Part shown: positions 1,252 to 25,266 of the stretch, piece by piece
How the letters are laid out: every line of letters begins with the position of its first letter
Position numbering within the stretch: the first letter of the stretch is position 1
Origin: a virus
Length of the DNA: 34,319 nt
Strand: one strand, 5' to 3'
IMG/VR virus record: IMGVR_UViG_3300010354_004459
Location: 1 to 34,319 of that record
Notes under the pieces: generated by a model
Database searches by the model: none
What the model was told of the DNA's origin: nothing
The model's input: only the letters and a program-made list of their open reading frames with translations
Translations under genes and position numbers: made by a program

Positions 1252-1261
1252 AGATAAAAAA

Positions 1262-2497
1262 ATGAACTTAGATAAAAAATTTTTGTTAAATGAAAGCAAA
1301 GTATTTTGCATGTTTCCGTGGATGCACTTAAATATTACTCCTCGGGGGGACATTTATCCTTGCTGTAGTAATACCTATACATCACCGTTTGGTAGTATTA
1401 AAGATTCTACATTAAAAGAAGCGTTTAATAATGATAAGATGAAACAGTTACGCCTTAACATGTTAAACGAAAAAGAAAGTTCTATTTGCGATTTTTGCTA
1501 TAAACATGAACAAGCCAGTCCACATAGTTTTAGAAATTATAGTAAAGAATTTTGGAGTAAAGATTTTGATGAATTAGTGCCACAAACATTAGAAGATGGC
1601 ACCATGCCTGAGTTCAAAATGAAATACTACGATATTCGTTTTAGTAATATTTGTAATTTTAAATGTAGAACTTGCGGTTCTGAATTTAGCAGTCAATGGG
1701 CAGCTGAACAACGTGCCAATCATGATCCTAATCATCCTATTGTTATTCACGCAGATGATAACAAAGGAAAATTATTAGAAGAAGTTCTTACACATATTGA
1801 ACATATTGATCTTGCTTATTTTGCCGGTGGAGAACCGTTAATTACAGACGAGCACTATACAATTTTAGAAGAAATGATTCGTAAGGGAAGAACTGATGTT
1901 ACTCTAAGGTATAACACAAACGCTAGTAATATTAAATACAAAAATCATGATGTACTTGACTTGTGGAAACATTTTAAACGTGTAGAACTCAGTTGTTCGG
2001 TTGATCATTATGGTGAAAGAGCAGAATGGTTGCGTCACGGAACAGATTGGGGAAAAGTGGAATCTAATTTAGCAACTTTTCGTGAATTAGACTATATTAG
2101 TTTTCAAATGAATACGGTGTTTAGCATTTTTAATTATTTCACACTAACTGAGTTTTATGACTATCTTATTAGTAAAAATTTAATCAGACGTAATGATTGG
2201 CATCATAGTTTGTATAGGGCTGTACATCCCCCGTACTACTGTGCTAAAAGTTTGCCTAAAGAGTTAAAGATTACCGCAGAATCTAAAGCTAGAAAATGGG
2301 CTGAACAACACAAGGATAATGGCACTAGTTTATCAACGCTAGTAGTAGACGCTGTTAATTTTGCAGCTGAAAGAAATTCGTGGGAAGAAAACAAAAAAAC
2401 TTTTTTCATGCACACATTATCAGTCGATAAAATTAGAGAAGAAGATTTTTTTAAAGTTTTCCCTGAATTAAATAAACTGTCAATTTTGGTAGAATAA
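1262..2497 (+). CDS. Radical SAM protein with N-terminal twitch-type cysteines (paralog 2 of 3)
   Basis: The protein has 411 residues and the same layout as the preceding gene: N-terminal cysteines C16, C34-C35, C76 and C79, the radical-SAM cluster at C131, C135 and C138, and GGEP at 189-192. The stretches around DIRFSNICNFKCRTC, YFAGGEPLIT and RHGTDWG are nearly the same as in paralog 1, which points to tandem duplication followed by divergence. One base separates its stop from the ATG of paralog 3. The ribosome binding site is poor (an A-rich AAAGATAAAAAA), as for several genes in this block. The substrate is unknown. Peptide or small-molecule modification are both possible, because twitch/SPASM enzymes act on either. 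Confidence 0.85.
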   Translation: MNLDKKFLLNESKVFCMFPWMHLNITPRGDIYPCCSNTYTSPFGSIKDSTLKEAFNNDKMKQLRLNMLNEKESSICDFCYKHEQASPHSFRNYSKEFWSKDFDELVPQTLEDGTMPEFKMKYYDIRFSNICNFKCRTCGSEFSSQWAAEQRANHDPNHPIVIHADDNKGKLLEEVLTHIEHIDLAYFAGGEPLITDEHYTILEEMIRKGRTDVTLRYNTNASNIKYKNHDVLDLWKHFKRVELSCSVDHYGERAEWLRHGTDWGKVESNLATFRELDYISFQMNTVFSIFNYFTLTEFYDYLISKNLIRRNDWHHSLYRAVHPPYYCAKSLPKELKITAESKARKWAEQHKDNGTSLSTLVVDAVNFAAERNSWEENKKTFFMHTLSVDKIREEDFFKVFPELNKLSILVE

Positions 2498-2498
2498 A

Positions 2499-3770
2499 AT
2501 GAAAGATATAGCAGACTTAATCAAAACTGGAAAGCATTTTTGTATATTACCTTGGATGCACTTTCATGCTTGGCCAGACAAGCGTGTATTACCTTGTTGT
2601 ATAGCAAATAGCAATGATGTATATGCCACCGTTGACGAAAATTCATCTATTTTAGACATGATGAATAGTGAAAAATTTAAACAAATGAGATTGGCATTTT
2701 TAAATGATGAACCGGTAAGTAGTTGTCAAAGGTGCTATGATTTAGAAGCATTGGGAACTACTACTATGCGTAATAGTCACAATGCTAATTGTCCTAGCCG
2801 CAATGGTATAACTCCAGAATATGTAAAAGACGTAACTAACGAAGATGGTAGTTTAAAGTCATTTCAAATGAAATACATGGATATGCGATTTAGCAATTTG
2901 TGTAATATGAAATGTCGCAGTTGCGGACCTAGTTGCTCAAGTCAATGGGCACAAGAATTTATAGATCATAAAGGCGTCGAAGTTCTAAACAAACATTTTA
3001 ATATGACTAAAATGGTCGTGAGTAATAATGAAGATCAAGTTTTTATGACAAAATTAAAACCATATCTAAAGGATGTAGTTGAGGTATACTTTGCTGGCGG
3101 CGAAGTTATCATTACTCCTGAACATTACGAGTGTTTAGATTATTGGTTAGAAACAGGTGTAAATGAAAAAATTGAATTAACTTATACTACAAATTTTTCT
3201 AGTTTAAAATATAAAGATAAAGACCTAATCGAATACTGGAAAAAATTTCCTAAATTGATTATTTGGGCTAGCCTTGATGGTATGGGTAAACACGGTGAAT
3301 TAATTAGAAAAGGCACTGACTGGGATAGGATAGAAAAGAATTTACGTGAAATTAAAGAGCTAGTACCACACGCTAGATTTCAAATAACTCCAACAATAAG
3401 TATTTGGAATGTGTACCAATTTCCTAAATTTTTTGATTATCTAATTGATAATGACTTAATTGATAAAAATACGGCACCGAGGTTTAACTTAGCTACTAGT
3501 CCCTGGTATGCTAATATCATGATTCTTCCAGAATTTAGTAAAGAGAAGCTAACTCGACTGTACAGAGAGTATATTCACAAATATAGTTATAATAAGGCAA
3601 TTAGTGATGGTTTTAAAATGGTACAGCAGAATTTAAAAAGCGGTGAACCAAACAAAGGTGGCTTACAAGAATTTATTAAGTTCAATGATGAATTAGATAT
3701 TGTTAGAAATGAAAAAATTCTAGATGTAGCCCCTGAACTCAAAGAGGTGTATAGATGGGCAAAAAGTTAA
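2499..3770 (+). CDS. Radical SAM protein with N-terminal twitch-type cysteines (paralog 3 of 3)
   Basis: The protein has 423 residues. The radical-SAM cysteines are C135, C139 and C142 (CNMKCRSC). The N-terminal auxiliary-type cysteines are C15, C33-C34, C76 and C79, with extra cysteines at C98 and C146. The SAM-binding GGEP of its two paralogs reads GGEV here (200-203), a conservative change that need not abolish activity. The repeated FAGGE, HY and RKGTDW elements show common ancestry with the two upstream genes. Its 3' end overlaps the next radical-SAM gene by 16 nt, suggesting translational coupling of all four enzymes. It is the most divergent of the three tandem copies. Confidence 0.85.
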   Translation: MKDIADLIKTGKHFCILPWMHFHAWPDKRVLPCCIANSNDVYATVDENSSILDMMNSEKFKQMRLAFLNDEPVSSCQRCYDLEALGTTTMRNSHNANCPSRNGITPEYVKDVTNEDGSLKSFQMKYMDMRFSNLCNMKCRSCGPSCSSQWAQEFIDHKGVEVLNKHFNMTKMVVSNNEDQVFMTKLKPYLKDVVEVYFAGGEVIITPEHYECLDYWLETGVNEKIELTYTTNFSSLKYKDKDLIEYWKKFPKLIIWASLDGMGKHGELIRKGTDWDRIEKNLREIKELVPHARFQITPTISIWNVYQFPKFFDYLIDNDLIDKNTAPRFNLATSPWYANIMILPEFSKEKLTRLYREYIHKYSYNKAISDGFKMVQQNLKSGEPNKGGLQEFIKFNDELDIVRNEKILDVAPELKEVYRWAKS

Positions 3771-4720
3771 TTGCTATCCATGCGCCAGAACCATATCTAG
3801 CAGTTACATGGCAAGTTAATAATTTTTGTAATTTTAAATGTAGCTACTGTAATCCAGGTAACTGGGGAGGAAGTCATCGTAACGATGATAATCTAGATGT
3901 TTATTTAAAAAATTTAGATATTATTATTAAAAGATATAAAAGTGTAGGATATAAGCATTATAAATTTTTCTTCAGCGGCGGAGAACCGACAGCCTGGAAG
4001 AATTTTATTCCAATATGCGAATGGTTAAGAGAACAATTACCTGATTGTACATTAGCTGTTAATACAAATTTAAGTAGACCGTTAGCCTGGTGGGAAAAAC
4101 ATTACCATTTGTTTGACGATATTGTGGCTAGTTTTCATGTTGAATTTGCCGACAAAGACAAATATAGAGATAACAATATTTTTCTCTGTGACAAGGTAAA
4201 TTATCTATGTACTAAGATGTTAATGCACGAAGAAAGATTTTGGGAAATAGTTGATTTTGGAAATTATTTAAAAACGGTTATGCCTAACTATTTTATTGAA
4301 TGGACTCCGTTGTTTGATGAAATGAGTGTTAATGCCGGGCCGTGGCAGTATAAAGACCAAGATAAGGCCAAATTTATCAATGAACATAATGTAGAAATGA
4401 ATTTTACTATACCCAAACCATATAAAGAAAGTAAAGCAGTTAGTTTTAATAGGTATGATGATAATTCTAAATCGCCTACAAACAGTAATGAAATTATTGT
4501 AAACGGACAAAACTTTTTTAAAGGTTGGATTTGTAATGTGGGAGATTGTATTTTTATAAATCCGACAGGACAAGTAAGTCTTGCTAGTTGTGGACAAGGT
4601 GATAGTGTAGGGCATATATTAAATGATATTTCTAAAGTTGGCCCTAAACAAATAGTATGCGGAAAAGATCATTGTCATTGCGGCACTGATATTATTATTC
4701 CAAAGTTTGACAGAGTTTAA
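3755..4720 (+). CDS. Radical SAM protein with C-terminal SPASM-like cysteines
   Basis: The protein has 321 residues. The radical-SAM core starts almost at once, with C25, C29 and C32 (CNFKCSYC), and GGEP lies at 75-78. The auxiliary-type cysteines are at the C-terminus: C260, C265, C279, C302, C307 and C309, with spacing like a SPASM or twitch domain. This is the usual order, the reverse of the three upstream paralogs, so it is a separate subfamily rather than a fourth tandem copy. The start lies 16 nt inside the previous gene. Substrate unknown. Clustering with three other radical-SAM proteins suggests sequential or partnered reactions, which is inference. Confidence 0.8.
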   Translation: MGKKLIAIHAPEPYLAVTWQVNNFCNFKCSYCNPGNWGGSHRNDDNLDVYLKNLDIIIKRYKSVGYKHYKFFFSGGEPTAWKNFIPICEWLREQLPDCTLAVNTNLSRPLAWWEKHYHLFDDIVASFHVEFADKDKYRDNNIFLCDKVNYLCTKMLMHEERFWEIVDFGNYLKTVMPNYFIEWTPLFDEMSVNAGPWQYKDQDKAKFINEHNVEMNFTIPKPYKESKAVSFNRYDDNSKSPTNSNEIIVNGQNFFKGWICNVGDCIFINPTGQVSLASCGQGDSVGHILNDISKVGPKQIVCGKDHCHCGTDIIIPKFDRV

Positions 4721-4722: not shown

Positions 4723-5862
4723 ATGCCAATTGTTAATTCTACTATTCCTTTTATTAATTACGATGGACAAGTCTATTATCGTGATCAAAATGTTGTATAT
4801 GAAATCAGTGATTATCCTGGAATTAAATATCATTGGATTGAATATTCTATTCCAAACAACGTAAAACAAATTAAGAATATTTTGTCTGACGACATAATAG
4901 ATAAGATTCGAAATGAAGATTTATATCTAGTCTTATATCATTCTCATGAAGCATCTACAAAAATTGTAGCTGAAATAAATCTTTTATTAGCTCAATTAAA
5001 AATCCCAGAAAATAAATTTCATTTATACACAGAATCTCCTACTGTTAGAGATTTGATGATAGACTTTGCTAAAAAATTAGGTAAACAACCATTTAGGTGC
5101 TTTCAAACTACATTGTTTGAAAAATTTTCGCAAGATGGTATATCGCAACTAGAATATAACTACACTATAAAACCTACACTAGAATACAAAACTTATAATA
5201 AAAAATTTCTTAACTTTAATAGGCGATGGAGGTGGCATAGACCCATTTTAGTAGCGCATTTATATTTAGAAAAGTTGTTAGATCAGGGTTATGTAAGTCT
5301 AGCAGATTGCGACGATAATTTTGATTATAACAAACTGTGGAATATAATTTTAGAATTACATGACAAATATCCCGATATTCAGCACAAATTAATAGCTGAA
5401 AAAAATAATATATTAAATATTCCACCTTTAATTTTAGATCAATCAGATTTAAAAATTAATCATGCAAATCTAATGTCGTCAACATTTGATCTGTACGCAA
5501 ATACATATTTTAGTGTAGTAACAGAAACTAATTTTTATTACAAACAAGAACCAGCTTTATTTTTAACAGAAAAAATTTTTAAACCAATTGCTCATAAGCA
5601 TCCTTTTGTTGTACTAGGCCGTCCTGGTACTTTAAATTTTTTAAAAAAATTAGGATATAAAACATTTGATAAATTAATTGATGAGTCATATGATATGATA
5701 GATGATGATACTTTAAGACTTATAAGAGTAGTACAAGAAATTAAAAAATTATGTAATTTATCAGATGATAGATTAAGAGAATTTTTAAATGAAGCTCAAA
5801 AAATTTGCGATTATAATTATACCTTATTAAAAAATAAAACTAATTTTATTACAGAAATATGA
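4723..5862 (+). CDS. Glycosyltransferase-like protein, paralog A
   Basis: The protein has 379 residues, with no signal peptide or membrane segment. The C-terminal part holds a strong signature: E268, then LTEK at 281-284, HKHPF at 291-295, GYKTF at 311-315 and DESYD at 320-324. A second block, NRRWRWHR, lies at 166-173. The ET...TEK...P(F) arrangement recalls the donor-binding region of GT-B enzymes such as GT10 fucosyltransferases, but this is by eye only. Two other genes in the window (7990-8958 and 13267-14502) share the same blocks, so this is a local family of three. It sits 2 nt after the radical-SAM gene and 1 nt before an SGNH-like gene. A glycan-modifying role is inferred. An uncharacterised phage family is the alternative. 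Confidence 0.6.
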   Translation: MPIVNSTIPFINYDGQVYYRDQNVVYEISDYPGIKYHWIEYSIPNNVKQIKNILSDDIIDKIRNEDLYLVLYHSHEASTKIVAEINLLLAQLKIPENKFHLYTESPTVRDLMIDFAKKLGKQPFRCFQTTLFEKFSQDGISQLEYNYTIKPTLEYKTYNKKFLNFNRRWRWHRPILVAHLYLEKLLDQGYVSLADCDDNFDYNKLWNIILELHDKYPDIQHKLIAEKNNILNIPPLILDQSDLKINHANLMSSTFDLYANTYFSVVTETNFYYKQEPALFLTEKIFKPIAHKHPFVVLGRPGTLNFLKKLGYKTFDKLIDESYDMIDDDTLRLIRVVQEIKKLCNLSDDRLREFLNEAQKICDYNYTLLKNKTNFITEI

Positions 5863-5863: not shown

Positions 5864-6646
5864 ATGATTGACAATATTGATTTATCAAAATACAAAAGAT
5901 TTTTTGCATTTGGCTGTAGCTTTACAGGATATTGGTGGCCAACTTGGGCAGATGTTTTAGCTAAAGATATGCCACAAGCAGAGTTTTACAATATGGGATA
6001 TTGTGGTGCAGGAAATTTAATGATTAGTAATAGAATATATGAAGCTAATTTAAAATTAAAATTTAACAAAGACGATTTAGTAATTGTTATGTGGTCTACA
6101 TTTTGTAGAGAAGATAGATATATTAACAATAGATGGGAATGTCCTGGTAATATTTTTACGCAACAAGTTTACTCTGAAAATTTTGTTAAAAAGTTTGCAG
6201 ATCCAAAAGGATACTTAATACGGGATCTGTCGTTGATAAGTTATACTAAGTGTTTTTTAGAAAGTTTAAAATGTGATTCAATTACTCTGCTATCAGTTCC
6301 GTTAAATTTTCAAAATGAAGACAACGAAGTAGATTCGATAATTAAAAGTTATTCTTCTACATTCGAAACAGTACCTAAACCCATGCTTGATTTAGAGTTT
6401 AACGGTACATGGGGAACTAGTGGAGTATCTTATATTTTTCAAGGAAAGCCTATGTGGGATTATCACCCTAGTCCTATACGATATAGAAATTATCTTGAAA
6501 AAATAGGTTTTAAATTATCTTTGACATCTAAAATTTTTGCCGAAAATTCTACTCAAAATATGAGTAAGGCTAAAAGTAAAGAAGAATTAGTATCATTATT
6601 TGGAAACAATGGACATGGAGATGCTCATTTTTCTCAATGGTGGTAA
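5864..6646 (+). CDS. SGNH/GDSL-hydrolase-like protein A
   Basis: The protein has 260 residues. Block I reads FGCSFTG with the presumed nucleophile S19, block III reads GAGN at 48-51, and a block-V-like DYHPS lies at 199-203, supplying a possible D199/H201 pair. This order is typical of SGNH hydrolases, which remove or transfer acyl groups on sugars, peptides or lipids. The family-wide GDS signature is replaced by GCS, as in several phage and bacterial surface-glycan SGNH proteins. It follows the glycosyltransferase-like gene with a 1-nt gap, so an O-acetyl or acyl editing role on a glycan is plausible. Two other GCS-type proteins occur in the window. Confidence 0.6.
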   Translation: MIDNIDLSKYKRFFAFGCSFTGYWWPTWADVLAKDMPQAEFYNMGYCGAGNLMISNRIYEANLKLKFNKDDLVIVMWSTFCREDRYINNRWECPGNIFTQQVYSENFVKKFADPKGYLIRDLSLISYTKCFLESLKCDSITLLSVPLNFQNEDNEVDSIIKSYSSTFETVPKPMLDLEFNGTWGTSGVSYIFQGKPMWDYHPSPIRYRNYLEKIGFKLSLTSKIFAENSTQNMSKAKSKEELVSLFGNNGHGDAHFSQWW

Positions 6647-6682: not shown

Positions 6683-7876
6683 ATGAAAACAGTTGCGATG
6701 ATAGGAGTTGGGAAACTTGGGCAAGATTGTGCCGAGGTAATGGCCCAACATTATAATACAGTAGGATATGATGTAGCACCTAGGACACCTTCTAATTTCA
6801 GGATGTGCGACTCTATTAAAGAAGCCGTAGAGGGTAGAGATTTAATTTTTATAGCTGCTCCAACTGCTCATGATCCAATTTATGGTGGCGAAACTCCGAC
6901 TAGTCACCTTCCAAATAAAGACTTTGATTATACTGTTGTAAAACAGATTCTTGAAGAAGTTAACAAATATGTTAATAAATCGCAATTAGTTGTTCTAATT
7001 AGTACTACTTTACCGGGCACTGTAAGAAATTTACTAGCTCCTTGTATAACTAACGCTAGATTTATCTACAATCCATATCTTATAGCAATGGGCACAGTTA
7101 AATGGGATATGGTAAATCCAGAAATGGTAATTATTGGAACTGAAGATGGCAGTCTTACTGGAGACGCAAAAGAATTAATTGATTTTTATAAACCATTTAT
7201 GGAAAACAATCCTAGATACGAAGTTGGTACTTGGGACGAAGCAGAATCAATTAAGATATTTTATAATACTTTTATTAGTACAAAATTAGCTTTAGTAAAT
7301 ATGATACAAGATGTTGCTGAGACAAACGGTAACATTAATGTTGATGTAGTTACTAATGCTTTAAAGCATAGCACATACAGAATTATGGGTCCTGCATATA
7401 TGGGAGCCGGCCTAGGTGACGGTGGTGCATGTCATCCTAGAGATAACATTGCGTTAAGATACCTAGCAGAACGTTTAGATTTAGGATATGATCTATTTGA
7501 TGCTATTATGAAAGCTAGAGAAGTTCAAGCAAAACGAATGGCAAAACGATGTTTAGAATATGGTAAAAATGTAACAATTATTGGCAAAGCCTATAAGCCT
7601 GGTGTTCCTTATACAATAGGCAGTCCAAGTTTATTAGTAGGTCATTATGTTACAGAGCTAGGCGGGAATGTTCATTACTTTGACCCTAATACTGGCGATA
7701 TGGATATTAGAAAAGATTGGACAGACATATATTTAATAGGCTATTGGGAAGAGTGGATGAAAACAGCAGTGCCAGTGGGCGGAACTGTTTTAGATCCTTG
7801 GCGCAAATTAGATAGAGAATCTCATGTAGGATTTGAAGTTATTAGCTACGGAAATACTCGTAAAAAAAAAGTTTAA
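6683..7876 (+). CDS. Nucleotide-sugar 6-dehydrogenase (UDP-glucose/GDP-mannose dehydrogenase family)
   Basis: The protein has 397 residues, close to the family's usual length. It opens with a Rossmann motif GVGKLG (8-13). STTLPGT (107-113) matches the family's STVPPGT. The catalytic cysteine is C250 in GLGDGGACHPRD (matching GxGxGGxCxPKD). IIGKAYKPG and IGSPS resemble the C-terminal UDP-sugar-binding domain. The reaction would be NAD-dependent four-electron oxidation of a nucleotide sugar to its uronic acid, feeding the neighbouring glycosyltransferase-like proteins. The exact sugar cannot be told. The reading frame ends in CGT-AAA-AAA-AAA-GTT-TAA, an A9 run from which a -1 slip would run on into the next gene. 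Confidence 0.85.
   Translation: MKTVAMIGVGKLGQDCAEVMAQHYNTVGYDVAPRTPSNFRMCDSIKEAVEGRDLIFIAAPTAHDPIYGGETPTSHLPNKDFDYTVVKQILEEVNKYVNKSQLVVLISTTLPGTVRNLLAPCITNARFIYNPYLIAMGTVKWDMVNPEMVIIGTEDGSLTGDAKELIDFYKPFMENNPRYEVGTWDEAESIKIFYNTFISTKLALVNMIQDVAETNGNINVDVVTNALKHSTYRIMGPAYMGAGLGDGGACHPRDNIALRYLAERLDLGYDLFDAIMKAREVQAKRMAKRCLEYGKNVTIIGKAYKPGVPYTIGSPSLLVGHYVTELGGNVHYFDPNTGDMDIRKDWTDIYLIGYWEEWMKTAVPVGGTVLDPWRKLDRESHVGFEVISYGNTRKKKV
7862..7870 (+). promoter_or_regulatory. A9 run, possible -1 frameshift or transcript-slippage site
   Basis: Nine A residues end the dehydrogenase gene, two codons before its TAA. Positions 7864-7870 form A-AAA-AAA in the correct phase for an X-XXY-YYZ slippery heptamer. 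After a -1 shift the frame stays open through 7871-8958, joining the glycosyltransferase-like gene. A weak 8-bp inverted repeat follows at 7895-7902 and 7922-7929 with a 19-nt loop, farther away than a usual stimulator. A sequencing or assembly homopolymer error would give the same picture. Confidence 0.4.
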
Positions 7877-7989
7877 CTCCTAATCAAGATTTATTAAATG
7901 ATGCTAAAAATTTAATAAAAAATCATTTACCTAATTTAGAAGATTATTATCATGTATGGGCACACTGTCTAAGTGCTGCCCATTTTCAC

Positions 7990-8958
7990 ATGATTGACAC
8001 TAAAGAAATAGTAAATGACATAAGGATAGCCATTAAAAATGGTCATAAGAAAATTTTATTTGATAATATAGCCGAAGGCACTTATTTTGATATTATTAGA
8101 AAAATACATAGAATAATAAAATTAGTCGATGACAGTTCTGTAGAATATTATTATCTTTGTTCGTCTTATAATAGTGATCAAGCATATATGACATATTGTG
8201 AAAAACACAATATTAATCCTGTTCTTAAAATGATAAAAGTTAATTATTTTGAAATGGTAGAAAAAGCATATTTAGAACAATATCTAATTGAGAATCCTAA
8301 AAAAACTATTACCTACGAAATAAAAAATAAATCTAAAATTTTTAATTGTTTCAATAAAGCTCCTAGACAACACAGAGTTGAAATATTTTATAATATTCTA
8401 AGAGACGGTTATCTAGATAAGACATACTCGTCTTTTCAATTTGGTAAAGAAATTGCCGACCATTACATTGACAAAGAAATAAGAAAAATGTATGTGAAAC
8501 ATTCAAATATTTTTCCTTTGTTATTAGGAATGTCATCCGAAAGACCTAATCCAGTAGATGTAAGAGACGGTGATTTTTTATATCATAATGACTCGTATTT
8601 TAGTCTAGTAACTGAAACATTGTTTTATAAAAATTTTAGTAGTTCTGAAAACTGTGTATTTTTAACAGAAAAAACTTTTAGACCTATTATTCATAAACAT
8701 CCATTTATTATTGTAGGATCGACAGGATGTTTAGCATATTTAAAAAAATACGGATACAAAACTTTTGCTCCTTTTATTGATGAATCATACGATAGTATAA
8801 TTGATGATGAACAACGATTAAATGCTATATGGAAAGAAGTAGTAAGATTGTCTAATTTTTCTAATGAAGAATGGTTAGAATGGCAGCAAAATGTTGCTAG
8901 TATTGTCGAACATAACTATGATGTTATCATGAATAAAAATTATACCATTTTAGAATAA
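7990..8958 (+). CDS. Glycosyltransferase-like protein, paralog B
   Basis: From the first ATG the protein has 322 residues. It shares with its paralogs HR at 128-129, ET at 209-210, LTEK at 225-228, HKHPF at 235-239, GYKTF at 255-259 and DESYD at 264-268. The start is uncertain. There is no Shine-Dalgarno sequence before 7990, and the frame is open from 7864 with coding-like content (including YYHVWAHCLSAAHFH) but no ATG, GTG or TTG. The real protein may therefore begin earlier, through a -1 shift on the A9 run that ends the dehydrogenase gene, giving a fusion. The activity is inferred to be glycosyl transfer; the substrate is unknown. Confidence 0.6.
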   Translation: MIDTKEIVNDIRIAIKNGHKKILFDNIAEGTYFDIIRKIHRIIKLVDDSSVEYYYLCSSYNSDQAYMTYCEKHNINPVLKMIKVNYFEMVEKAYLEQYLIENPKKTITYEIKNKSKIFNCFNKAPRQHRVEIFYNILRDGYLDKTYSSFQFGKEIADHYIDKEIRKMYVKHSNIFPLLLGMSSERPNPVDVRDGDFLYHNDSYFSLVTETLFYKNFSSSENCVFLTEKTFRPIIHKHPFIIVGSTGCLAYLKKYGYKTFAPFIDESYDSIIDDEQRLNAIWKEVVRLSNFSNEEWLEWQQNVASIVEHNYDVIMNKNYTILE

Positions 8959-8987
8959 ACGTTAAATATCTTATAGGGAGAATTATT

Positions 8988-11243
8988 TTGGATTTTACTT
9001 TAAAAGGACTGGCAAAAAAAGAAATTACATTGCCAGAAAAACCACCTGAAGATATAGCAGACGCTCGTCATATGTCTATGATGAAAGCTATTGCTCCTTA
9101 TGCAAAACAATCTGTTCAAAAAAATCTCACACCAGTTTATGTAGATTATAAAACTAGGCGTACTAAATTAGTACTAGTCCTTTGTCCAGAATGGAGTCCG
9201 TACATGCCTCCGTTCAGCCTTGCTAGGTTAAGTGGAGTAGCTAAAAGCGCCGGATATGAAACCCATATTATGGATCTCAATGTACTGGCATATAAAGCTC
9301 ATAACGAAGATTGGATTCCAAACAAAAAAATTCCTTTTAGATTATGGGATCCGGCTGCTAGCTGGCATTGGCAAGGAGACACTTATTTAAAAGATATACA
9401 CCCTGTTCTTGAGCCACTACTAACTAAAGCTATAGATGATATTATCGAACTTAGTCCGCAAATTGTCGGATTTTCAATGTATTATATTAGCGAAGAACCA
9501 ACAAAATGGATGGCACAAGAATTAAAGCGCAGAGCTCCTCACATTAAGATAGCAGTCGGCGGCCCCAACGCTCATAAAAGCTGGTTTAAGGTTCATCCTT
9601 ATTATGATTATGTAGTAGTAGGTGAAGGAGAAATTAATTTACTTAAAGTTTTAGATGAGATTGAAGAAGGGGTTGAAAGGTCAGAGCCGTATATTCTTAA
9701 ACAAGAAGAAGACGAAAGAGTAAACATAAACGGTTTACCTATGCCCGATTATGAAAGTATAGACTTTAGTTTATATGATTTGCCTAACGGAGTTAACACG
9801 GAAATTAGTAGGGGATGTACTGCTAAATGTACATTCTGTGAAGAAACACATTTCTGGAAATATAGACAACGACAGGCAGTGGATTTAGTTACTGAATTAG
9901 AATGGTTATATTATAATAAGGGAACTGACGTTGTATGGTTTATTGACAGTCTAGTTAATGGAAATTTAAAAGAACTACGTGCCTTTTGTAAAGCAGTAGA
10001 AGCTAAAGGTTTGCCAATTAACTGGACAGGCTACGCTCGTTGTGATGGTCGCATGGATCTAGAATATTTCAAAGATCTAAAAGCTGGAGGTTGTATCATG
10101 TTAAATTACGGTATTGAAAGCGGTAGTCAACATGTACTAGACGATATGGCCAAAGGTGTAACTATCGCAGAAATGGAACAAAATTTTCGAGATGGCAAAG
10201 AAGTAGGTGTTTTTGCTGCTACAAATTGGATTGTTGGATTTCCTACAGAAACATTACAAGACTTTGCTGACAGCATGACATTCCTGTGGCGTATGCGTAA
10301 CATGAACATCAATAACGTGGGAGCTGGAGTAGGATATGGGTTAGGGCCAGAGACGATTGTGGGGCAAAATCCTGATAAATTTAATATAAGTTGGCACAAG
10401 TATCAAAATCATTGGATAACAAAAGATTTTACTAAAGGCGGTACTCATGTTATGACAAGAGTAAAAACATTTCATATGTTTTTAGATTTTATGACAGGTT
10501 GTACAGATGTTCCGTTTACATATCCTATAAGATTTAGTTTAGCTAAAGAACATTATAAAATAAAATTAGATAACCCTAATATAATTAAAGAAGTTGAATA
10601 TGAAAAATTTGATTACGAAATAATCAAAGCAAATATCAATCCTTTTGCTGATGCTCTTGTAAATGAAATGTGGCCGTTCTTTCGTATGTTATGGAAAACT
10701 AGAGGCGGATACGAAGCAGAAGTATTATTTAATCCTGATATAGACTTAAAAGAATTTGGTAGTCAATATGGTCCAGGTATGTACAATGCTGTATTTAAAT
10801 TTAAAATTACTGATGAAGGTGCATGGACTGCAGATTTTAAATTTAAATTTGATCAGATAGATAATCCATATGATAACAGAGAACCTCCTCCAACGGGTCG
10901 TAAAGGACCATTTTATGCTCAAGATTATAGTAGAATGATGAGTAATACTGCTAAACGTGCTAGAAAATTAGCCAAACCGACATGGGATATTGATACTGGT
11001 CGCGATGACACTCACTTTGGCGAGCTGTTAGATGAGGAACATTATCTCAACAATACTATAGATTTTACCTTCCAATTTAGATACAGGGGGTCCGGCCATT
11101 GGGGAAACTTTAAAGAATATGAAGTAGAAGTGGCTAATAGATCTTCTATGGAAGCTATTCCCGAAAAGCAAGACATGCATCTTTCTAACATCGTTATTCC
11201 TATCACTAGTATAAAAAGGAAGTCTGATGTCTTCAATAAGTGA
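8988..11243 (+). CDS. B12-binding-type radical SAM protein with unknown C-terminal region
   Basis: The protein has 751 residues. The start is TTG, supported by TAGGGAG at 8974-8980. Residues about 60-230 look like the Rossmann-type B12-binding domain common in this radical-SAM class (LVLVLCPEW, VGFSMYYI, AVGGPNAH, VVVGEGE). The radical-SAM cluster is C277, C281 and C284 in SRGCTAKCTFCEE, followed by a typical core (WFIDS, YGIESGS, GFPTET). Such enzymes often methylate unreactive carbon or phosphorus or rearrange ring systems using cobalamin. The last 250 residues or so are not recognised and look rich in beta strands (FKFKI, FKFKF, FQFRYRG). The 3' end overlaps the aminotransferase-like gene by 17 nt, placing it in the same pathway unit. 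Confidence 0.8.
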   Translation: MDFTLKGLAKKEITLPEKPPEDIADARHMSMMKAIAPYAKQSVQKNLTPVYVDYKTRRTKLVLVLCPEWSPYMPPFSLARLSGVAKSAGYETHIMDLNVLAYKAHNEDWIPNKKIPFRLWDPAASWHWQGDTYLKDIHPVLEPLLTKAIDDIIELSPQIVGFSMYYISEEPTKWMAQELKRRAPHIKIAVGGPNAHKSWFKVHPYYDYVVVGEGEINLLKVLDEIEEGVERSEPYILKQEEDERVNINGLPMPDYESIDFSLYDLPNGVNTEISRGCTAKCTFCEETHFWKYRQRQAVDLVTELEWLYYNKGTDVVWFIDSLVNGNLKELRAFCKAVEAKGLPINWTGYARCDGRMDLEYFKDLKAGGCIMLNYGIESGSQHVLDDMAKGVTIAEMEQNFRDGKEVGVFAATNWIVGFPTETLQDFADSMTFLWRMRNMNINNVGAGVGYGLGPETIVGQNPDKFNISWHKYQNHWITKDFTKGGTHVMTRVKTFHMFLDFMTGCTDVPFTYPIRFSLAKEHYKIKLDNPNIIKEVEYEKFDYEIIKANINPFADALVNEMWPFFRMLWKTRGGYEAEVLFNPDIDLKEFGSQYGPGMYNAVFKFKITDEGAWTADFKFKFDQIDNPYDNREPPPTGRKGPFYAQDYSRMMSNTAKRARKLAKPTWDIDTGRDDTHFGELLDEEHYLNNTIDFTFQFRYRGSGHWGNFKEYEVEVANRSSMEAIPEKQDMHLSNIVIPITSIKRKSDVFNK

Positions 11244-11817
11244 ATTTGAAAATTTAATAGCTGAATATTTTAATGCTCCGTATGCCGTAACTACAGATTG
11301 TTGTACACATGCAATAGAACTTTGTTTGAGATATACTAGACCTTCGTCGGCTATATGTCCTAGGCATACTTATTTGAGTATACCGATGACGTTAATAAAA
11401 CTTAGTATACCATTTGAATGGTATGATACTAATTGGCAAAATTATTATTATTTAGGTAAAACTAATATAATTGACGCTGCTGTATATTGGAAACAAGGCG
11501 GATACAAATCGGGAACATTCATGTGTTTAAGTTTTCAGTTTCGTAAACATTTAAATTTAGGTCGCGGTGGAATAATTTTAACAGACGACAGAGATGCTGC
11601 TATAAAATTAAAAAAAATGAGTTATGATGGTAGAGATCCTAACGTATTATGGAAGGAGCAAGATATTGATATGATTGGATATCATTATTATATGACTCCG
11701 GAAGTTGCTACTGAAGGAATTAGAAAATTTCATGAGATAAAAGATATTGAACCTAGGCTATGGTCTAGTAACGATTACCCTGATATAAGTAAGATGAAGG
11801 TGTTTAATGTTAAGTAA
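11227..11817 (+). CDS. Shortened DegT/DnrJ/StrS-type PLP-dependent aminotransferase-like protein
   Basis: The protein has 196 residues, against about 370 for the family. It keeps the recognisable family path: FE.LIAEYFNAPYAVTTDCCTHAIEL at the start, D83 in IIDAA (the usual pyridine-nitrogen aspartate), and K107 in SFQFRKHLNLGRGG (the usual PLP lysine followed by GGIILTDD). It ends soon after MTPEVATEGIRKF, so the C-terminal domain is missing. It could still form a dimeric PLP site or act in sugar binding only. Full-length relatives add an amino group to keto-sugars or cyclitols. The start is supported by AAAAGGAAG. It overlaps its upstream and downstream neighbours, so it is likely co-translated with the amidinotransferase. 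Confidence 0.7.
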   Translation: MSSISEFENLIAEYFNAPYAVTTDCCTHAIELCLRYTRPSSAICPRHTYLSIPMTLIKLSIPFEWYDTNWQNYYYLGKTNIIDAAVYWKQGGYKSGTFMCLSFQFRKHLNLGRGGIILTDDRDAAIKLKKMSYDGRDPNVLWKEQDIDMIGYHYYMTPEVATEGIRKFHEIKDIEPRLWSSNDYPDISKMKVFNVK

Positions 11818-12784
11818 AAACGAATGGGATCCTCTTAAAACTGTAATTGTTGGCACGGCTACTGATGCTAAAATACCCTATCTAGATGTAAGTTTAAGAA
11901 CAGTAAATTACGCAGATAAAAAAGATAACAATGATATTCCGTTTGGGTCTTATCCAAAAAAAGTTATTGAAGAAGCAAACGAAGATTTAGAAATATTTTG
12001 TAATTTTCTAAAAAAAGAAGGTGTAGAAGTTTTACGACCTGATCCTAATTTTATTCCTAATTATTATTACTATTGTCCTAGAGATATTGTGCTAGTACAT
12101 GATGAATTAATTCTTGCTACTCCTAACCCTTTAAGTGCTAGAAAATACGAGTATCATAGTATTTCTCATCATTTAAAAAAACATGGTGATATTAGAGTAT
12201 CTCATTGTAGTCATAACAATAGTTTGTATAACTTAAATTGTATAGGTAATCCAAATATTCTTGCGCTAAATGAAACTGAACCAGCGTTTGATGCTGCTAA
12301 CATTTTAAGAGACAATGATAATCTCTATTACCTTGTTAGTAACAGCGGAAATAAAAAAGGAGCAGAATATTTACAAGAATTGTTACCAAATAATAAAGTA
12401 TGGACTATAGAAGGCGTTTATAGTTATATGCATCTAGATAGCACAATTTGTCTTCTTAGGGAAGGGCTAATGTTGCTAAATCCTAGTAGAATAAAAAGTA
12501 TTGAGCAGTTACCAAGACCTTTACAAAATTGGGATGTTATTTGGTGCCCTGAACCGGTAGACATTGGCCATTATCCTGGATATTGTAATGCCAGTGTATG
12601 GATTAATATGAATCTTTTTAGTGTAAATCCTAATCTTGTAGCTCTTGAAAAAAATCAAGAATCATTACGTAAAGAATTAGAAAAGTATGGAATTGAATCA
12701 GCAATGTTGCCTATGCGTCAACAACGTACACTTGGTGGCGGGTTTCATTGCGTTACATTAGATATAATTAGAAATGAAATTTAA
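11807..12784 (+). CDS. Amidinotransferase (glycine / inosamine-phosphate amidinotransferase family)
   Basis: The protein has 325 residues. It opens with EWDPLKTVIVG, the standard start of this family. It carries EPAFDAAN at 158-165 (compare EPCFDAAD in arginine:glycine amidinotransferase), YMHLDST with H209 and D211, and the catalytic cysteine C315 in GGGFHCVTLDI. These enzymes move an amidino group from arginine to an amine, giving a guanidino product such as guanidinoacetate or the guanidino-cyclitol of streptomycin. The gene follows directly on a StrS-like aminotransferase relative, and that pairing is known from aminocyclitol antibiotic clusters. The acceptor here is unknown. The start has AAGGTG upstream and overlaps the previous gene by 11 nt. 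Confidence 0.85.
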   Translation: MLSKNEWDPLKTVIVGTATDAKIPYLDVSLRTVNYADKKDNNDIPFGSYPKKVIEEANEDLEIFCNFLKKEGVEVLRPDPNFIPNYYYYCPRDIVLVHDELILATPNPLSARKYEYHSISHHLKKHGDIRVSHCSHNNSLYNLNCIGNPNILALNETEPAFDAANILRDNDNLYYLVSNSGNKKGAEYLQELLPNNKVWTIEGVYSYMHLDSTICLLREGLMLLNPSRIKSIEQLPRPLQNWDVIWCPEPVDIGHYPGYCNASVWINMNLFSVNPNLVALEKNQESLRKELEKYGIESAMLPMRQQRTLGGGFHCVTLDIIRNEI

Positions 12785-13274
12785 ACAAGGTCATATAACT
12801 CCATTTTGGGATTCTAATTATAAGAATTTTCATTATGTAAAGCAACCTATTACTAATCATGAAATTAGTGATTGGGAGAAGCAAGGCTATGACTATGTTA
12901 AAAGTTTTACAGGATGGATGTATGATAATCGAAATCCTATGCCTGACTATTTAAATAATTTTACACACTTTGGATTAAAAAATCAAGTCTACTGTTTTTA
13001 TATGATGAAGACTTTAGAAATAATGCCTGTTCATACAGACAAATACCTTAGATATATAGAACTGTTTAATGCTAGGCCTGAAAATGTTTGTAGAGTCTTA
13101 GTTATGTTAGAAGATTGGAAACCAGGCCATTATTTAGAAATAGATAGTAAAGGTTATGTTAATTGGAAAGCCGGAGATTGGTTTTTATGGAATAATGATG
13201 TACCTCATGCAGCAAGTAACATTGGCACAGACAATCGATATACTTTACAAATAACTGGAGAAATGATTGTCTAG
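12774..13274 (+). CDS. Fe(II)/2-oxoglutarate oxygenase-like protein (Asp/Asn beta-hydroxylase type)
   Basis: The protein has 166 residues and looks like a compact double-stranded beta-helix oxygenase. The metal-binding set is H87-x-D89 in PVHTDKY and H145 in NNDVPHAASN, and R155 in DNRYTL is suited to bind 2-oxoglutarate. W131, G134 and D135 in NWKAGDWFLW, with the following PHAASN, are typical of aspartyl/asparaginyl-hydroxylase-like phage proteins. It probably hydroxylates a small molecule, sugar or protein side chain. It overlaps the amidinotransferase stop by 11 nt and the next gene by 8 nt, which ties it to this biosynthetic unit. The substrate is unknown. Confidence 0.75.
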   Translation: MKFKQGHITPFWDSNYKNFHYVKQPITNHEISDWEKQGYDYVKSFTGWMYDNRNPMPDYLNNFTHFGLKNQVYCFYMMKTLEIMPVHTDKYLRYIELFNARPENVCRVLVMLEDWKPGHYLEIDSKGYVNWKAGDWFLWNNDVPHAASNIGTDNRYTLQITGEMIV

Positions 13275-14502
13275 TATTCTACATAGCACACACTGGTTTA
13301 ATTTTCCAGAAACAAAATCTTTAGATGAAACTTTAAACAATTTGTTTATTGTCTCTACGCTGAAACAAACTTCAGTCAGTCATCTCCCAGTTATTATTAA
13401 TATGTGGAATGGTAAAATTAATATTTTAGATAGTTTTAATCATTCGGAAAATGAAAGGCAATATTTAAATAATACAGGTTTGTATATATTTTTGTACGAA
13501 CCATTATGTCAATATGTAGAAGGTTTTCCTCATAATAGAGGATTTCACAGTGAAGTAAAATTTGAACAAGACATAAATTTAATGAGAGCTGACGAGCTTG
13601 ACTCTATAAAGAAATATGTAATTAAAAATAATCTTACAAATGTTCATGTATATACATGCGACTACAATTCACATATATATTTTCCTTATTACAACAAGTA
13701 TTTTAAGATAGCGTGTGATGATTTGTTTATAAAAAATTATGTAGTATTTGAAGCTTCTAATAACAAAAAAATAGATAAAAATTTTATTTGTTTAAATTGG
13801 AGACATTCTAAACATAGACATTTACTTGCTGCTTTCTTAGCACAAGAAAATAGTTTTATAAGTTGGTATTTTAGATCAACTTTGGATATTTTGTTAGCAG
13901 ATATGTGGGCCGATATTTCTAAATGGCAATTTACTAACATAGAATTATATAATCAATTAGTAACCGGTCTTAATACACTAAACACAACATCTCCTAGATT
14001 ATTGGATATTGAGCAAGCTAATCTAGTAGACATAATAGATCCTAATATAGCATATTATCCAGAAAGTGTAAAGTATGCTAATCATCATAATCCTGCTATG
14101 GATAATAGCAGAAATAGTTTATTAGAGTCGTTTTATGATAGATCTTTCTGTGATGTTGTTAATGAAACTAGATTTGCCCAACATACAGGCAACTTTAGTG
14201 AAAAATTATTTCAGAGTGTGCGATATAAAACACCATTTATATTAGTTGCCCCTCCTAGGACTTTAGAATATGCTCAAAATTATGGATTTAAAACTTTTGA
14301 AAATTTCTGGGACGAAGGTTATGATCGATGTGATAATCATGAGCAAAGATTAATTAAAATATTTCAACTAATTAAATTTATTGGATCTTTGTCGTTAAAT
14401 GACTGTAAAAATCTATATAAAGACATGGAGCCTATTCTTGAGCATAATTATAATATATTAGTTGAAAAAACTTATTCTAAACAAACTCAAAAATACAAAT
14501 GA
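13267..14502 (+). CDS. Glycosyltransferase-like protein, paralog C
   Basis: The protein has 411 residues. It starts at TTG inside the end of the oxygenase gene, with GGAG six bases upstream. It is the most divergent member of the local three-gene family: NWRHSKHR at 177-184, NET at 299-301, FSEK at 310-313, TPF at 322-324, then GFKTF and DEGYD. The C-terminal IL.HNYN.L element is shared with paralog B. TEK has become SEK and HKHPF has become YKTPF, so specificity may differ. ATGA overlaps the next gene. A GT-B-like role is inferred from the motif pattern only. Confidence 0.55.
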   Translation: MSSILHSTHWFNFPETKSLDETLNNLFIVSTLKQTSVSHLPVIINMWNGKINILDSFNHSENERQYLNNTGLYIFLYEPLCQYVEGFPHNRGFHSEVKFEQDINLMRADELDSIKKYVIKNNLTNVHVYTCDYNSHIYFPYYNKYFKIACDDLFIKNYVVFEASNNKKIDKNFICLNWRHSKHRHLLAAFLAQENSFISWYFRSTLDILLADMWADISKWQFTNIELYNQLVTGLNTLNTTSPRLLDIEQANLVDIIDPNIAYYPESVKYANHHNPAMDNSRNSLLESFYDRSFCDVVNETRFAQHTGNFSEKLFQSVRYKTPFILVAPPRTLEYAQNYGFKTFENFWDEGYDRCDNHEQRLIKIFQLIKFIGSLSLNDCKNLYKDMEPILEHNYNILVEKTYSKQTQKYK

Positions 14503-15230
14503 AAAAAATAATGTTAATCGCAGGTTGTAGCCATGCTGCTGGTAGCGAAATAGATGGATCACAAGATAGTGTATTCAATAGGCAACACTCTTTTGGAAAT
14601 CTATTAGCTACAAGATTGGGTTACGAACCAGTTAATATTTGTAGCGTAGCTTCTGCAAATCCTTCTATAGCTAGACTAGTATTAGAATGGATAGAAACAA
14701 ATTATAATCCTGAGTCAATGGAGCTATTTGTTACAGTAGCATGGACTGAAAGTACTAGAATAGAACTGCCTAGTGTTACCGGAACTGACTATGCTGTTGC
14801 TAATAAAGCAGCAGATTGGTTTTCTAAATACGATAAAAATTATTATAGAATAAATCAGGGATGGGAAGGATCTACGGGTTATGAAAAACAAGTTTTGCCA
14901 GGTTATCAAAAATTTATAACTGATAACGTAACCTATCTAGAAATTTTAAGTGCTAATTTAGTTTTACAACTACAATGGTATTTTCAAAAATCTAAGATAA
15001 ATTATCTTATGTGTAATACTATGTATATGTTTACAAAAGATCCATATACTGAATTTTTTACGAACATGATAGATAAAGATAGATATATTGACTGTCTTAA
15101 TAATGATGAATCATTTTATTGGAAATATCGAAACGCTGGTTATAAAAATGAAAAAGCACAGTATTGGCATCACGGTGAAGAGCCGCACAAATTGTATGCT
15201 GATAAACTATATAAATTTATAACGGAATAA
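14499..15230 (+). CDS. SGNH/GDSL-hydrolase-like protein B
   Basis: The protein has 243 residues. Block I is IAGCSHAAGSE with presumed nucleophile S11, and SVASANPS at 49-56 resembles block III with its asparagine. The C-terminus has HHGEEPHKLYADKL, where H225 or H230 could serve as the block-V histidine. It is only distantly like the SGNH-like gene at 5864, so the two are not recent duplicates. The start overlaps the upstream glycosyltransferase-like gene as ATGA. Pairing of an SGNH-like gene with a glycosyltransferase-like gene happens twice on this strand, which supports a glycan acylation or deacylation role. Confidence 0.5.
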   Translation: MKKIMLIAGCSHAAGSEIDGSQDSVFNRQHSFGNLLATRLGYEPVNICSVASANPSIARLVLEWIETNYNPESMELFVTVAWTESTRIELPSVTGTDYAVANKAADWFSKYDKNYYRINQGWEGSTGYEKQVLPGYQKFITDNVTYLEILSANLVLQLQWYFQKSKINYLMCNTMYMFTKDPYTEFFTNMIDKDRYIDCLNNDESFYWKYRNAGYKNEKAQYWHHGEEPHKLYADKLYKFITE

Positions 15231-15235: not shown

Positions 15236-18200
15236 ATGTATGATATTTTTGTTATTGGCGAAAATACCAATTGGAAAAAAATAAAGACAAAATATCCTTT
15301 TGCTAAAAAAGTAAAAGATTTTCATGAAGCAAGAAATAAATCTCTTACTCCGATGTTTTGGGCAGTGTGGCCTGATATAGATGTTAAAGAAGATTTTGAT
15401 TTTACATTGAATGTGCCTAAATGGGACGAAGAATATGTACATGTATGGAAAAATAAAGAGTATTATGATGGGTTATCTCTTGTTCCCAAACATAAACATA
15501 TTTCTGATAGAGAAATAAATTATAGATTTTTTACAGATAAAAAAGAAATAGATCAAGTTGCTAGTGAACCAAAGAAATACGATATATTTGAAATAGAAAC
15601 TTATGAGCAATATTTAGAGGCAATGGAAAAGACAACCACAGATATGTTCTGGATGACTAGTCCTAATTTAAAAATTGCTGAAGGATTTGATTTTAGTTTT
15701 CAAGGCACTAGATATGAAAACCATGCCTTTATACATCTAGTTAATAATGAAAAACTTTATAATGGTATTTTTCTTTTAAGTAAACACAGACCCGTAACAA
15801 AAAAAGAAATAGAGCATCGTCATATTATTGAACGTAAGGAATGGGACATTATAGCATCAGGTCCTTGCCAGTATGATATCTTTGAAATAGAAACCTACAA
15901 GCAATATCAAGAAGCATTAGAAAACTCTCGTACTGAAATGTTTTGGATGACATCACCTAATTTGAGTCCCGCTGATGACTTTAAGTTTGATATCTATTTT
16001 AGTCACGACAAAATTTATGATAGAAATGAAAATCACGCATTTGTTCATTCAGTGGGAGAAGAAAGATTATATAATGGAATATTCCTTCTTAGTAAGACCA
16101 AGAAAGTAAGTCGACGAGAAATTGAAAATAGATATATCATGGAACGCAAAGAATGGGACATTATTGCTTCGGGTCCATGCGAATATGAAAAATTTATTGT
16201 AGACACATATGATCAGTATATTGAAGCAAAAAATAAGTCACGTACAGAAATGTTTTGGGCTATTCCTAGTACTGTTGATCTATTAGATGATTTTAAATTT
16301 GATTTATATTTTGAGCACAATAACATTTATGACAGAGTGATGACTCACATTTTTAGAAACAGTGAGTTTTACGATGGTGTGATGTTAATTACTAAAAACA
16401 GAGAAATTAGTCAAAAAGAATTTGACTATGGATTTATTGTTGCTAGAAAAGAATACGATGTCTTAGCTAGTGTCCCTAAAAAGTTTGATAAATTTGATAT
16501 TAAAACATATCAAGATTATTTAGATGCATGCGAAAAATCAACTACAGGGATGTTTTGGGCTGTGTGGTCAGATGTCGAACTGGTAGAAAATTTTGATTTT
16601 GATTATTACGTACCAAGATATAATCAACATATAACACATATTTTTAGGAACGGTGATCATTTTGATGGCATTTGTTTGTTTAGCAAACATCAAAAAGTTT
16701 CAGAAAAAGAATTTAAATATAGATTCTTTAATGATAAAAAAGAAATAGATTATATCATTAGTTATCCAAAACAATACAATATTTTTACGATAGAAACATA
16801 CGAACAATACTTAGAGGCTTTAGAAAAGTCGACCACTGATTTATTCTGGATGACATCACCTAACTTAAAAGTTGCTGAAGATTTTAAATTTGATTTATAC
16901 ATAACCCATCATAATGCTTATGAAAGACAAGAGAATCATGGTTTTATACACAGAGTAGGGGATGAAGATTTTTATAATGGTATTTTTCTTTTAAGTAAAC
17001 ACAGACCTGTAACAAAAAAAGAAATCGAACATAGATATCTTATTGAAAAGAAAGAATGGGATATTGTTGCGTCAGGTCCTTGCAAATACGATATTTTTGA
17101 AATTGAGACTTACGAGCAATATTTAGACGCAATGACAAATTCTAAAACAGAATTGTTTTGGATGACGTCTCCTAATTTAAAAATTGCTGATGACTTTAAA
17201 TTTGATTTGTATTTTGATCATAGTAACACATTTGATAGAAACACAAATCACGTATTTGTACATTTAGTTAATGAAGAAAAGTTATACAACGGTGTATTTT
17301 TAATGAGTAAACACTGTCCGGTAACTAAAAAAGAAATTGAGCATAGATATATTGTAGAACGTAAAGAATGGGACATTATCGCATCAGGGCCATGCCAATA
17401 CGAAATATTCAAGGCAGATACTTATAACGAATATCTACATGCAAAAACATCTTCTAAAACAGAAATGTTTTATGTAGTACACTCAAATATTAAAGTACTT
17501 GATGATTTTAAATTCGATTTATACTTTGATCATTACAATATTTTTGATAGAAATATAACACACATTTATAGGAATAGTGAGTTCTTTGATGGTGTTATGC
17601 TAATGTCGAAGCACAAAGAAATTAGTCAACGAGAATTTGACTATGGATTTATTGTAGACAGAAAAGAACATGATGAAATGTCTAGTCTACCCAAGAAGTT
17701 TGATATATTTAGAATAGAAACATACGAACAATACTTAGAGGCCTGTAAGCAATCGACTACTGGAATGTTCTGGGCTATATGGCCTGATGTAGAAGTAGTT
17801 GAAGATTTTGATTATGATTATTATGTACCTAAATACAATCAGCATATCACACACGTATTTAGAAACGGAAATTCATTTGACGGCATTTGCTTGCTAAGTA
17901 AGTATGTTCCGATTACTGAAAAAGAATTTAAATATAGATTCTTTAATGATAAAAAAGAAATAGATTATATTGCGAGTTACCCTGTTCCTTATGATAAGTT
18001 TGAAATTGAAACTTACGAGCAATACTTAGAAGCCTTAGAAAATTCTACAACAGATCTTTTCTGGATGACATCACCCAACTTAAAAGTTGCTGATAATTTT
18101 AGTTTAGATGAATTTCATACATCGGAGAGATATTTTAATCATGCGTTTGCACATCTAGTTAACAACGAAAAGTTGTACAACGGCGTATTCTTGTTAAGTA

Positions 18201-23746: not shown

Positions 23747-24025
23747 CTAAGATAAAAGTGGACAAGCAAGTCTGAAAAAGCTTAATTCTTTTTCTTGCTC
23801 AAATCCAATTTTTGTAGTGTAGACAACGGTGTTATCAATAACATCAATGCTTTGTCCAATATAATAACGTCCGTTTAAATTTTGATAAATCCATTTATCT
23901 AAATTAGATAAAATAATTGATGTGTACTTAGGATGAGTAGTATAAAAGAAATGATAGGCCGGGAAGTTAACCTTCCTCAGGCCTAGAGCATTTAATGGAT
24001 TTACTTTACCGTTTTTTAGTGCCAT
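23747..24025 (-). CDS. Small unknown phage protein
   Basis: The protein has 92 residues and is not recognised. It is soluble, with many aromatic residues (FPAYHFFYTT, WIYQNLNGRYYIG). Segments such as VVYTTKIGF suggest a small beta-sheet fold. The start overlaps the stop of the VWA/metallopeptidase-like gene as TAATG, so it is probably translated from the same message and controlled by the promoter at 25221-25249. Confidence 0.6.
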   Translation of the reverse strand: MALKNGKVNPLNALGLRKVNFPAYHFFYTTHPKYTSIILSNLDKWIYQNLNGRYYIGQSIDVIDNTVVYTTKIGFEQEKELSFFRLACPLLS

Positions 24026-25194: not shown

Positions 25195-25220
25195 AATTTG
25201 CTCCTGTTTATACAGTATAT

Positions 25221-25249
25221 ATTATAACAGGGTCCGAAGACCCTGTCAA
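25221..25249 (-). promoter_or_regulatory. Perfect sigma70 promoter for the VWA/metallopeptidase-like gene
   Basis: On the minus strand TTGACA (25249-25244) is followed by a 17-bp spacer and TATAAT (25226-25221). Both boxes match the consensus fully. The start codon at 25194 gives a leader of about 20 nt containing ACAGGAG. This would be read by unmodified host RNA polymerase, as expected for early phage genes. Confidence 0.85.
25227..25246 (-). terminator. UUCG-tetraloop hairpin between moxR-type gene and VWA gene
   Basis: On the minus strand ACAGGGTC-TTCG-GACCCTGT is a perfect 8-bp stem with a UUCG loop closed by C-G, one of the most stable RNA hairpins. It lies 20 nt downstream of the MoxR stop codon and fills the spacer of the next promoter. 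There is no U-tract after it, so it may protect or end the upstream message rather than act as a classical terminator. T4 uses C(UUCG)G hairpins between genes. Confidence 0.7.
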
Positions 25250-25266
25250 ATGGTGCTATAACCAAA

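Follow-up and report, generated by a model that had tools for sequence, protein, structure and literature searches.

Do the sugar-type genes at positions 6683-14502 of the virus record IMGVR_UViG_3300010354_004459 form one pathway, and what would such a pathway make? The record is a 34,319-bp virus fragment of IMG/VR, analysed here at its full length and called the window, and it carries an amidinotransferase (AT) gene that overlaps the gene for a protein resembling the StrS aminotransferases. A preliminary description had read a run of seven genes as one pathway for a guanidino- or amino-sugar-like product, and all the genes that it named are present. We find that the real unit is AT together with a miniature aminotransferase (mStrS), often with a small oxygenase (OXY), inside variable glycan islands. 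That this unit tailors sugars for the virus within an island for glycan synthesis, and makes a guanidino sugar, is in our judgement about evenly balanced. Its genes in the window are as follows.

11227-11817, + strand: miniature StrS/DegT-type pyridoxal phosphate (PLP) protein of 196 amino acids (aa), mStrS; PF01041; module core
11807-12784, + strand: StrB-like L-arginine:X amidinotransferase, AT; found by phmmer against StrB of the PDB; module core
12774-13274, + strand: small 2-oxoglutarate (2OG)-Fe(II)-type oxygenase, OXY; weak PhyH and Asp_Arg_Hydrox matches plus motif; frequent third member

Linkage of AT and mStrS

Viral contigs were scanned with a search pattern built from the window and the cyanophage S-SCSM2R, a sampling that favours close relatives of the query. 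The AT scan gave 143 relatives, of which the best 80 were retained, and the mStrS scan gave at least 479. After dereplication of the AT loci at 90% identity, mStrS was present in the fetched flank of 37 of 39 loci, lying within 2.5 kb of AT in 35 and within 100 nucleotides (nt) in 23; OXY was within 2.5 kb of AT in 19 of the 39. When all loci were pooled and dereplicated at 70% identity, mStrS was found in 20 of the 22 AT groups, OXY in 15, a UDP-glucose/GDP-mannose dehydrogenase family member (UGDH) in 11 and a B12-binding radical S-adenosylmethionine (radical-SAM) enzyme in 10. Since the pooled set depends partly on loci fetched via mStrS, the AT-first figure of 37/39 is the fairer one. The conserved co-occurrence that the preliminary description proposed to look for thus holds on viral contigs for the StrS-like protein and the amidinotransferase as a pair with glycan genes as neighbours, but it does not extend to all seven genes as a single pathway: only about half of the AT loci have UGDH, and about half the B12 radical-SAM enzyme, and we rejected both as core members.

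Gene order varies widely among the AT loci, including loci with OXY on the opposite strand or AT upstream of mStrS. AT and mStrS distances are correlated (Mantel rho 0.36, 0 of 999 permutations). Mapped onto the mStrS tree, the AT label takes 7 changes versus 34 for shuffled labels, in a test where some labels are affected by contig ends or gene calling and near-copies inflate the clustering.

The two core proteins

In a phmmer search of the PDB, StrB (1bwd) was by far the top match of AT (E=2.9e-62, 214 bits, residues 4-322 of 325), followed by human glycine amidinotransferase (AGAT; E=6e-34, 121 bits); in pairwise comparison, AT is 42% identical to StrB and 32% identical to AGAT. Pfam and NCBIfam gave a weak arginine-deiminase match, below threshold in Pfam, and the Pfam arginine-deiminase model run on the window gave no match, which reflects a model that is too distant and not absence of the enzyme. 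Residues D93, H209, D211 and C315 are kept in 84 of 84 relatives and D162 in 79 of 84; we read these five as catalytic because they align with StrB and AGAT and agree with established knowledge of the family. Assignment of AT to the StrB/AGAT-type L-arginine:X amidinotransferases, with a predicted intact active site, is well supported, and the catalytic cysteine noted in the preliminary description is borne out as C315. In a small tree, the phage ATs form their own branch outside the StrB subgroup, where StrB pairs with two cyanobacterial proteins. Two cyanobacterial StrB-like amidinotransferases (L181 and L182) are about 54% identical to StrB and share a common three-gene neighbourhood unlike the phage one. 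A cellular origin of AT was considered and rejected: among 199 Marinimicrobia genomes none had a match with E<=1e-30, and among 386 cyanobacterial genomes 3 did, of which the two closest differ in context.

The second protein scores 51.6 bits against PF01041, above the curated cut-off of 19.8, and may work like the DegT/DnrJ/EryC1/StrS family, yet it is a divergent miniature. A complete two-domain DegT/StrS chain has about 360-390 aa, whereas nearly all of about 160 collected mStrS copies have 193-221 aa, which marks mStrS as a stable family rather than a broken gene. Its AlphaFold2 (AF2) model, built from an alignment of the window and locus sequences only, reached a predicted local distance difference test (pLDDT) score of 96. 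The top Foldseek match of this model was GDP-perosamine synthase (E=1.6e-10), and VIA-align superposed it on sugar transaminases with Z 19.6 and a root-mean-square deviation (rmsd) of 2.2-2.5 A over 187 residues, spread over about 290 residues of the target. K107, D83 and S102 are invariant in 121 of 121 sequences, and K107 aligns with the PLP lysine of GDP-perosamine synthase, the residue mutated in the K186A structure. Position 86, three after the PLP aspartate, is V in 114 of 121 sequences and E, H or D in the aligned full-length relatives. The fold match and the three invariant residues make a PLP pocket in mStrS likely, and the protein would act as a transaminase. Thus the StrS-like PLP protein of the preliminary description stands as to family and PLP residues, but not as a full-length enzyme. 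To our knowledge, such a half-size fold-type I PLP sugar aminotransferase would be smaller than any other.

Oxygenase and accessory genes

OXY is below the Pfam cut-offs. However, its H87xD89...H145 motif is invariant in 57 of 57 relatives and R155 is kept in 55 of 57, and by this signature of a metal triad and a basic 2OG-binding residue it is a predicted 2OG-Fe(II) oxygenase. It occurs in 78 of 110 AT loci versus 4 of 71 loci without AT. The SGNH-like family of 14499-15230 is found in 21 AT loci versus 2 without AT, and a NodU/Nol-like carbamoyltransferase near AT in 48 AT loci (L066, L063 and L071 among them) versus 2 without; the carbamoyltransferase may be another member of the decoration pathway. 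The CxxxCxxC motif of the B12 radical-SAM enzyme is present in 29 of 30, and the catalytic cysteine of the UGDH family in 37 of 37.

The glycosyltransferase of 13267-14502 has no Pfam match. Its AF2 model (pLDDT 87.6) matched SenB (E=9e-5) and other GT-B enzymes in Foldseek, and was superposed on T4 beta-glucosyltransferase and the phage HY126 glycosyltransferase with Z of about 10 and rmsd 5-6 A over 250-270 residues.

mStrS without AT and the substrate

mStrS lacks an AT neighbour in 39 of 61 dereplicated mStrS loci. It is not confined to viruses: cellular contigs from Marinimicrobia, Prochlorococcus single cells and alphaproteobacteria carry it as well. Where AT is absent, in viral and cellular contigs alike, the gene after mStrS encodes a short-chain dehydrogenase/reductase of the GDP-mannose 4,6-dehydratase (Gmd) type in 40 of about 57 loci; 46 of these loci have a WbuC-type cupin upstream and 29 have a methyltransferase close by (for Gmd and the cupin, representatives were examined to confirm the names). 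Among loci without AT, 56 of 71 have the cupin, versus 3 of 110 with AT, and Gmd was found in 3 of the 4 long mStrS contigs that lack AT. We read this as one amino-sugar enzyme with two uses, plain with Gmd and amidinated with AT. In L065 (8626-10966) and L084 (1878-4218), a WbuC-type cupin, Gmd and AT are directly coupled and no adjacent mStrS is visible, an arrangement that is possibly a hybrid of the two contexts.

The preliminary description had compared the pair with that of the streptidine unit of streptomycin. The window and 15 long AT contigs yielded no member of the DHQ-synthase-type family PF01761 or of the inositol-phosphate-synthase family PF07994, which makes streptidine-like chemistry unlikely; because these contigs are fragments, the finding lowers the standing of a streptidine-like guanidino-cyclitol and does not exclude it. 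The better fit is a nucleotide-linked amino sugar turned into its guanidino derivative, since mStrS adjoins Gmd where AT is absent and has GDP-perosamine synthase as its top structural match. Of the 15 long AT contigs, 13 have a member of the UDP-glucose/GDP-mannose dehydrogenase family, and the host or a UDP-hexuronate route may supply the keto-sugar in AT phages.

Target of the product

The cyanophage-like loci L063 and L071 share one order: two tail-fibre-like genes, two small genes, a large 2OG oxygenase, 3-4 GT25-like genes, mStrS, OXY, AT, a further GT25-like gene and the carbamoyltransferase. GT25 is our own reading of the sequence; PHROGs gives glucosyltransferase. Both GT25-like and GT-B glycosyltransferases are found in AT loci. 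A homologue of the tail-fibre-like protein is annotated as 'tail fiber protein' in S-SCSM1, and the layout favours virion glycosylation in these loci. The window fragment itself yielded no tail fibre. Published pelagimyophage islands have been interpreted as modifying host O-chains (PMC7029224). We keep virion and host glycan both as candidate targets, which the present evidence does not tell apart.

Proposed pathway and alternatives

In the pathway that we propose, mStrS would aminate a nucleotide-linked keto sugar, and AT would transfer the amidino group of arginine to the new amine, giving a guanidino sugar and ornithine; this type of reaction is well supported by the family, and the sugar amine is the presumed acceptor. 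The small 2OG oxygenase and, in other loci, the NodU-type carbamoyltransferase would add further decorations, and GT-B or GT25-like glycosyltransferases would place the sugar on a tail-fibre glycan or on the surface glycan of the infected host. More broadly, and only tentatively, this may be a widespread viral route in which a half-size aminotransferase feeds a StrB-like AT to equip tail fibres or host glycans with a cationic sugar, whereas in bacteria and other phages the miniature with Gmd makes a plain amino sugar.

Several findings weigh against the guanidino-sugar pathway. mStrS is without the C-terminal domain and the central segment of StrS enzymes in both the profile alignment and VIA-align, and with these segments missing it could be inactive or do other chemistry. 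AT phages have no constant enzyme for making a keto sugar, Gmd being absent from the 15 long AT contigs, and they must obtain the substrate from the host or in some other way; Gmd, linked to AT only in L065, L084 and L075, was therefore rejected as a fixed partner of AT. Moreover, in L065 the genes coupled to AT are cupin and Gmd, and the fetched flank contains no mStrS.

It is conceivable, although we think it unlikely, that mStrS is a PLP dehydratase, a partner subunit or a binding protein, and that AT amidinates some other amine, for instance on a tail protein, at a lysine or modified residue, or on a peptide made by the radical-SAM genes. The half size and the valine at position 86 would agree with a protein other than a transaminase, and the window island has five radical-SAM genes, while in Campylobacter phages AT is accompanied by radical-SAM genes and no mStrS turned up. 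However, the invariant PLP lysine, aspartate and serine and the adjacency of mStrS to Gmd without AT speak for a sugar aminotransferase, and StrB and AGAT, the closest relatives of AT, act on small molecules. A glycine amidinotransferase that gives guanidinoacetate or creatine as a metabolic aid is the label that such viral genes bear in public annotation, and one ocean survey reads viral guanidinoacetate methyltransferase (GAMT) as creatine synthesis. We consider this improbable given the higher identity of AT to StrB than to AGAT and its near-constant linkage to mStrS and glycan genes; in addition, no recurrent neighbour family resembled GAMT, although no GAMT model was applied.

A streptidine-like guanidino-cyclitol from inositol or 2-deoxy-scyllo-inosose would agree with a StrB-like AT adjoining a StrS-like protein, but it seems a little less probable again, as cyclitol synthase families were not found and the top matches of mStrS are sugar aminotransferases, perosamine synthase first. 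Modification of the phage DNA, one of the targets named in the preliminary description, is the least probable reading, and we would be surprised by it. GTP cyclohydrolase I and, judged by sequence, a QueE-like radical-SAM gene are present in the window, and the GT-B model resembles T4 beta-glucosyltransferase; however, the latter likeness, at the Z and rmsd given above, is common to many GT-B enzymes, and the recurrent neighbours of the module are surface-glycan-type and tail-fibre-like genes, not DNA-modification genes, which leaves decoration of DNA unsupported.

The island in the window

The module lies in one long gene run on the + strand (1-21671) with radical-SAM, glycosyltransferase-like, SGNH-like and nucleotide-sugar dehydrogenase genes and those named in the preliminary description. 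The other genes of the island are listed here.

1-4720, + strand: four radical-SAM genes, three of the NF033640 twitch-domain type and one shorter (NCBIfam); upstream part of the island
4723-5862, + strand: GT-B-family gene, relative of the 13267-14502 protein; upstream part of the same run
5864-6646, + strand: SGNH-like gene; upstream part of the same run
6683-7876, + strand: UGDH (PF00984/PF03721, phrog_9148); accessory
7990-8958, + strand: GT-B-like glycosyltransferase, of the same family and cluster as the 13267-14502 protein and alignable with it
8988-11243, + strand: B12-binding radical-SAM enzyme (PF04055 and PF02310); accessory
13267-14502, + strand: GT-B-fold glycosyltransferase by AF2 model and fold matches
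14499-15230, + strand: SGNH-like protein, from sequence; ATGA overlap with the preceding gene

Adjacent genes overlap by 8-17 nt over 8988-14502, and by 4-17 nt when the run is extended to 15230, which suggests translational coupling. The two intergenic gaps between 6683 and 8988 measure 113 and 29 nt; the dehydrogenase is therefore coupled less tightly than had been claimed, and the tight coupling of the run holds from 8988 onward.

The radical-SAM genes that stand in a row of four at 1-4720, three of them of the NF033640 type, recur in AT loci. The gene at 15236-20764 (+ strand) encodes an 1842-aa protein with about 16 degenerate repeats of about 100 aa (FW-containing units, spacing 97-104); tandem repeats looked for within it at the nucleotide level were not found. 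Its C-terminal domain resembles the product of the next gene (20715-21671), and many relatives have this protein downstream of the AT module. On the - strand, a MoxR-like AAA ATPase adjoins a DUF2201 metallopeptidase/VWA protein (24025-26358), and a second, shorter nucleotide-sugar dehydrogenase of 273 aa stops before the C-terminal domain (33111-33932). Also on the - strand (30057-33081), the putative QueE-like radical-SAM gene is near GTP cyclohydrolase I as in 7-deazaguanine pathways, a likeness seen in these two genes.

Comparison with known systems

Guanidino sugars are otherwise known mainly from aminoglycoside-type natural products. If our reading is true, phages make this class of sugar and probably alter the recognition of virions or infected cells with it, and mStrS is an unusually small PLP enzyme that tests how much of the fold catalysis needs. 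Annotations of viral 'glycine amidinotransferase' as creatine metabolism would also need correction. Aquatic surveys place related enzymes under creatine or glycine metabolism (PMC11360552, PMC8226683).

AT resembles StrB, the inosamine-phosphate amidinotransferase of streptomycin synthesis, in family, length class, catalytic Cys/His/Asp and the VDIG...SVWI...MN block besides the 42% identity. Unlike StrB, the phage ATs have their own branch, a miniature StrS partner and a glycosyltransferase context, and no cyclitol supply genes were found. mStrS shares the PLP fold with its Lys, Asp and Ser with GDP-perosamine synthase (RfbE/Per) and the DegT-StrS aminotransferases, its best match in sequence and fold, and Gmd stands beside it in loci without AT; it differs in its size, in the absent C-terminal domain and central segment and in the altered pocket residue V86.

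Marine T4-like phages are already known to carry glycan islands, and some amidinotransferases of phages are known as well. The islands of pelagimyophages (PMC7029224) and cyanophage S-SCSM1 (PMC9602691) resemble that of the window in glycosyltransferases, radical-SAM cassettes and UGDH or GDP-mannose genes, and the cyanophage-like loci in tail fibres, but the main texts of these papers name neither an amidinotransferase nor an aminotransferase, unlike the module described here. In the open-access literature, we found no report of a module of AT and a miniature StrS protein, and nothing relevant on guanidino glycans in phages or O-antigens or on truncated DegT proteins in phages. In the Campylobacter phages CP220 and CPt10, an AT lies beside several radical-SAM genes in an exchangeable module (PMC2853527). 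However, the Campylobacter phage AT is only about 25% identical, and no mStrS was found in the F379 locus; the F379 gene adjoining the Campylobacter AT was rejected as a 2OG oxygenase, being without the motif.

The closest parallel is the cyanophage S-SCSM2R (PQ898602) of Synechococcus WH7803, in which mStrS, a 2OG oxygenase and AT lie within 4 kb, the sole such trio among 50,697 phage records. It differs from the window in having no B12 radical-SAM gene and in having GT25-like, not GT-B, genes around the trio, and its annotation is gene by gene only. Because this isolate carries the trio, the idea of a viral guanidino-sugar module is directly testable.

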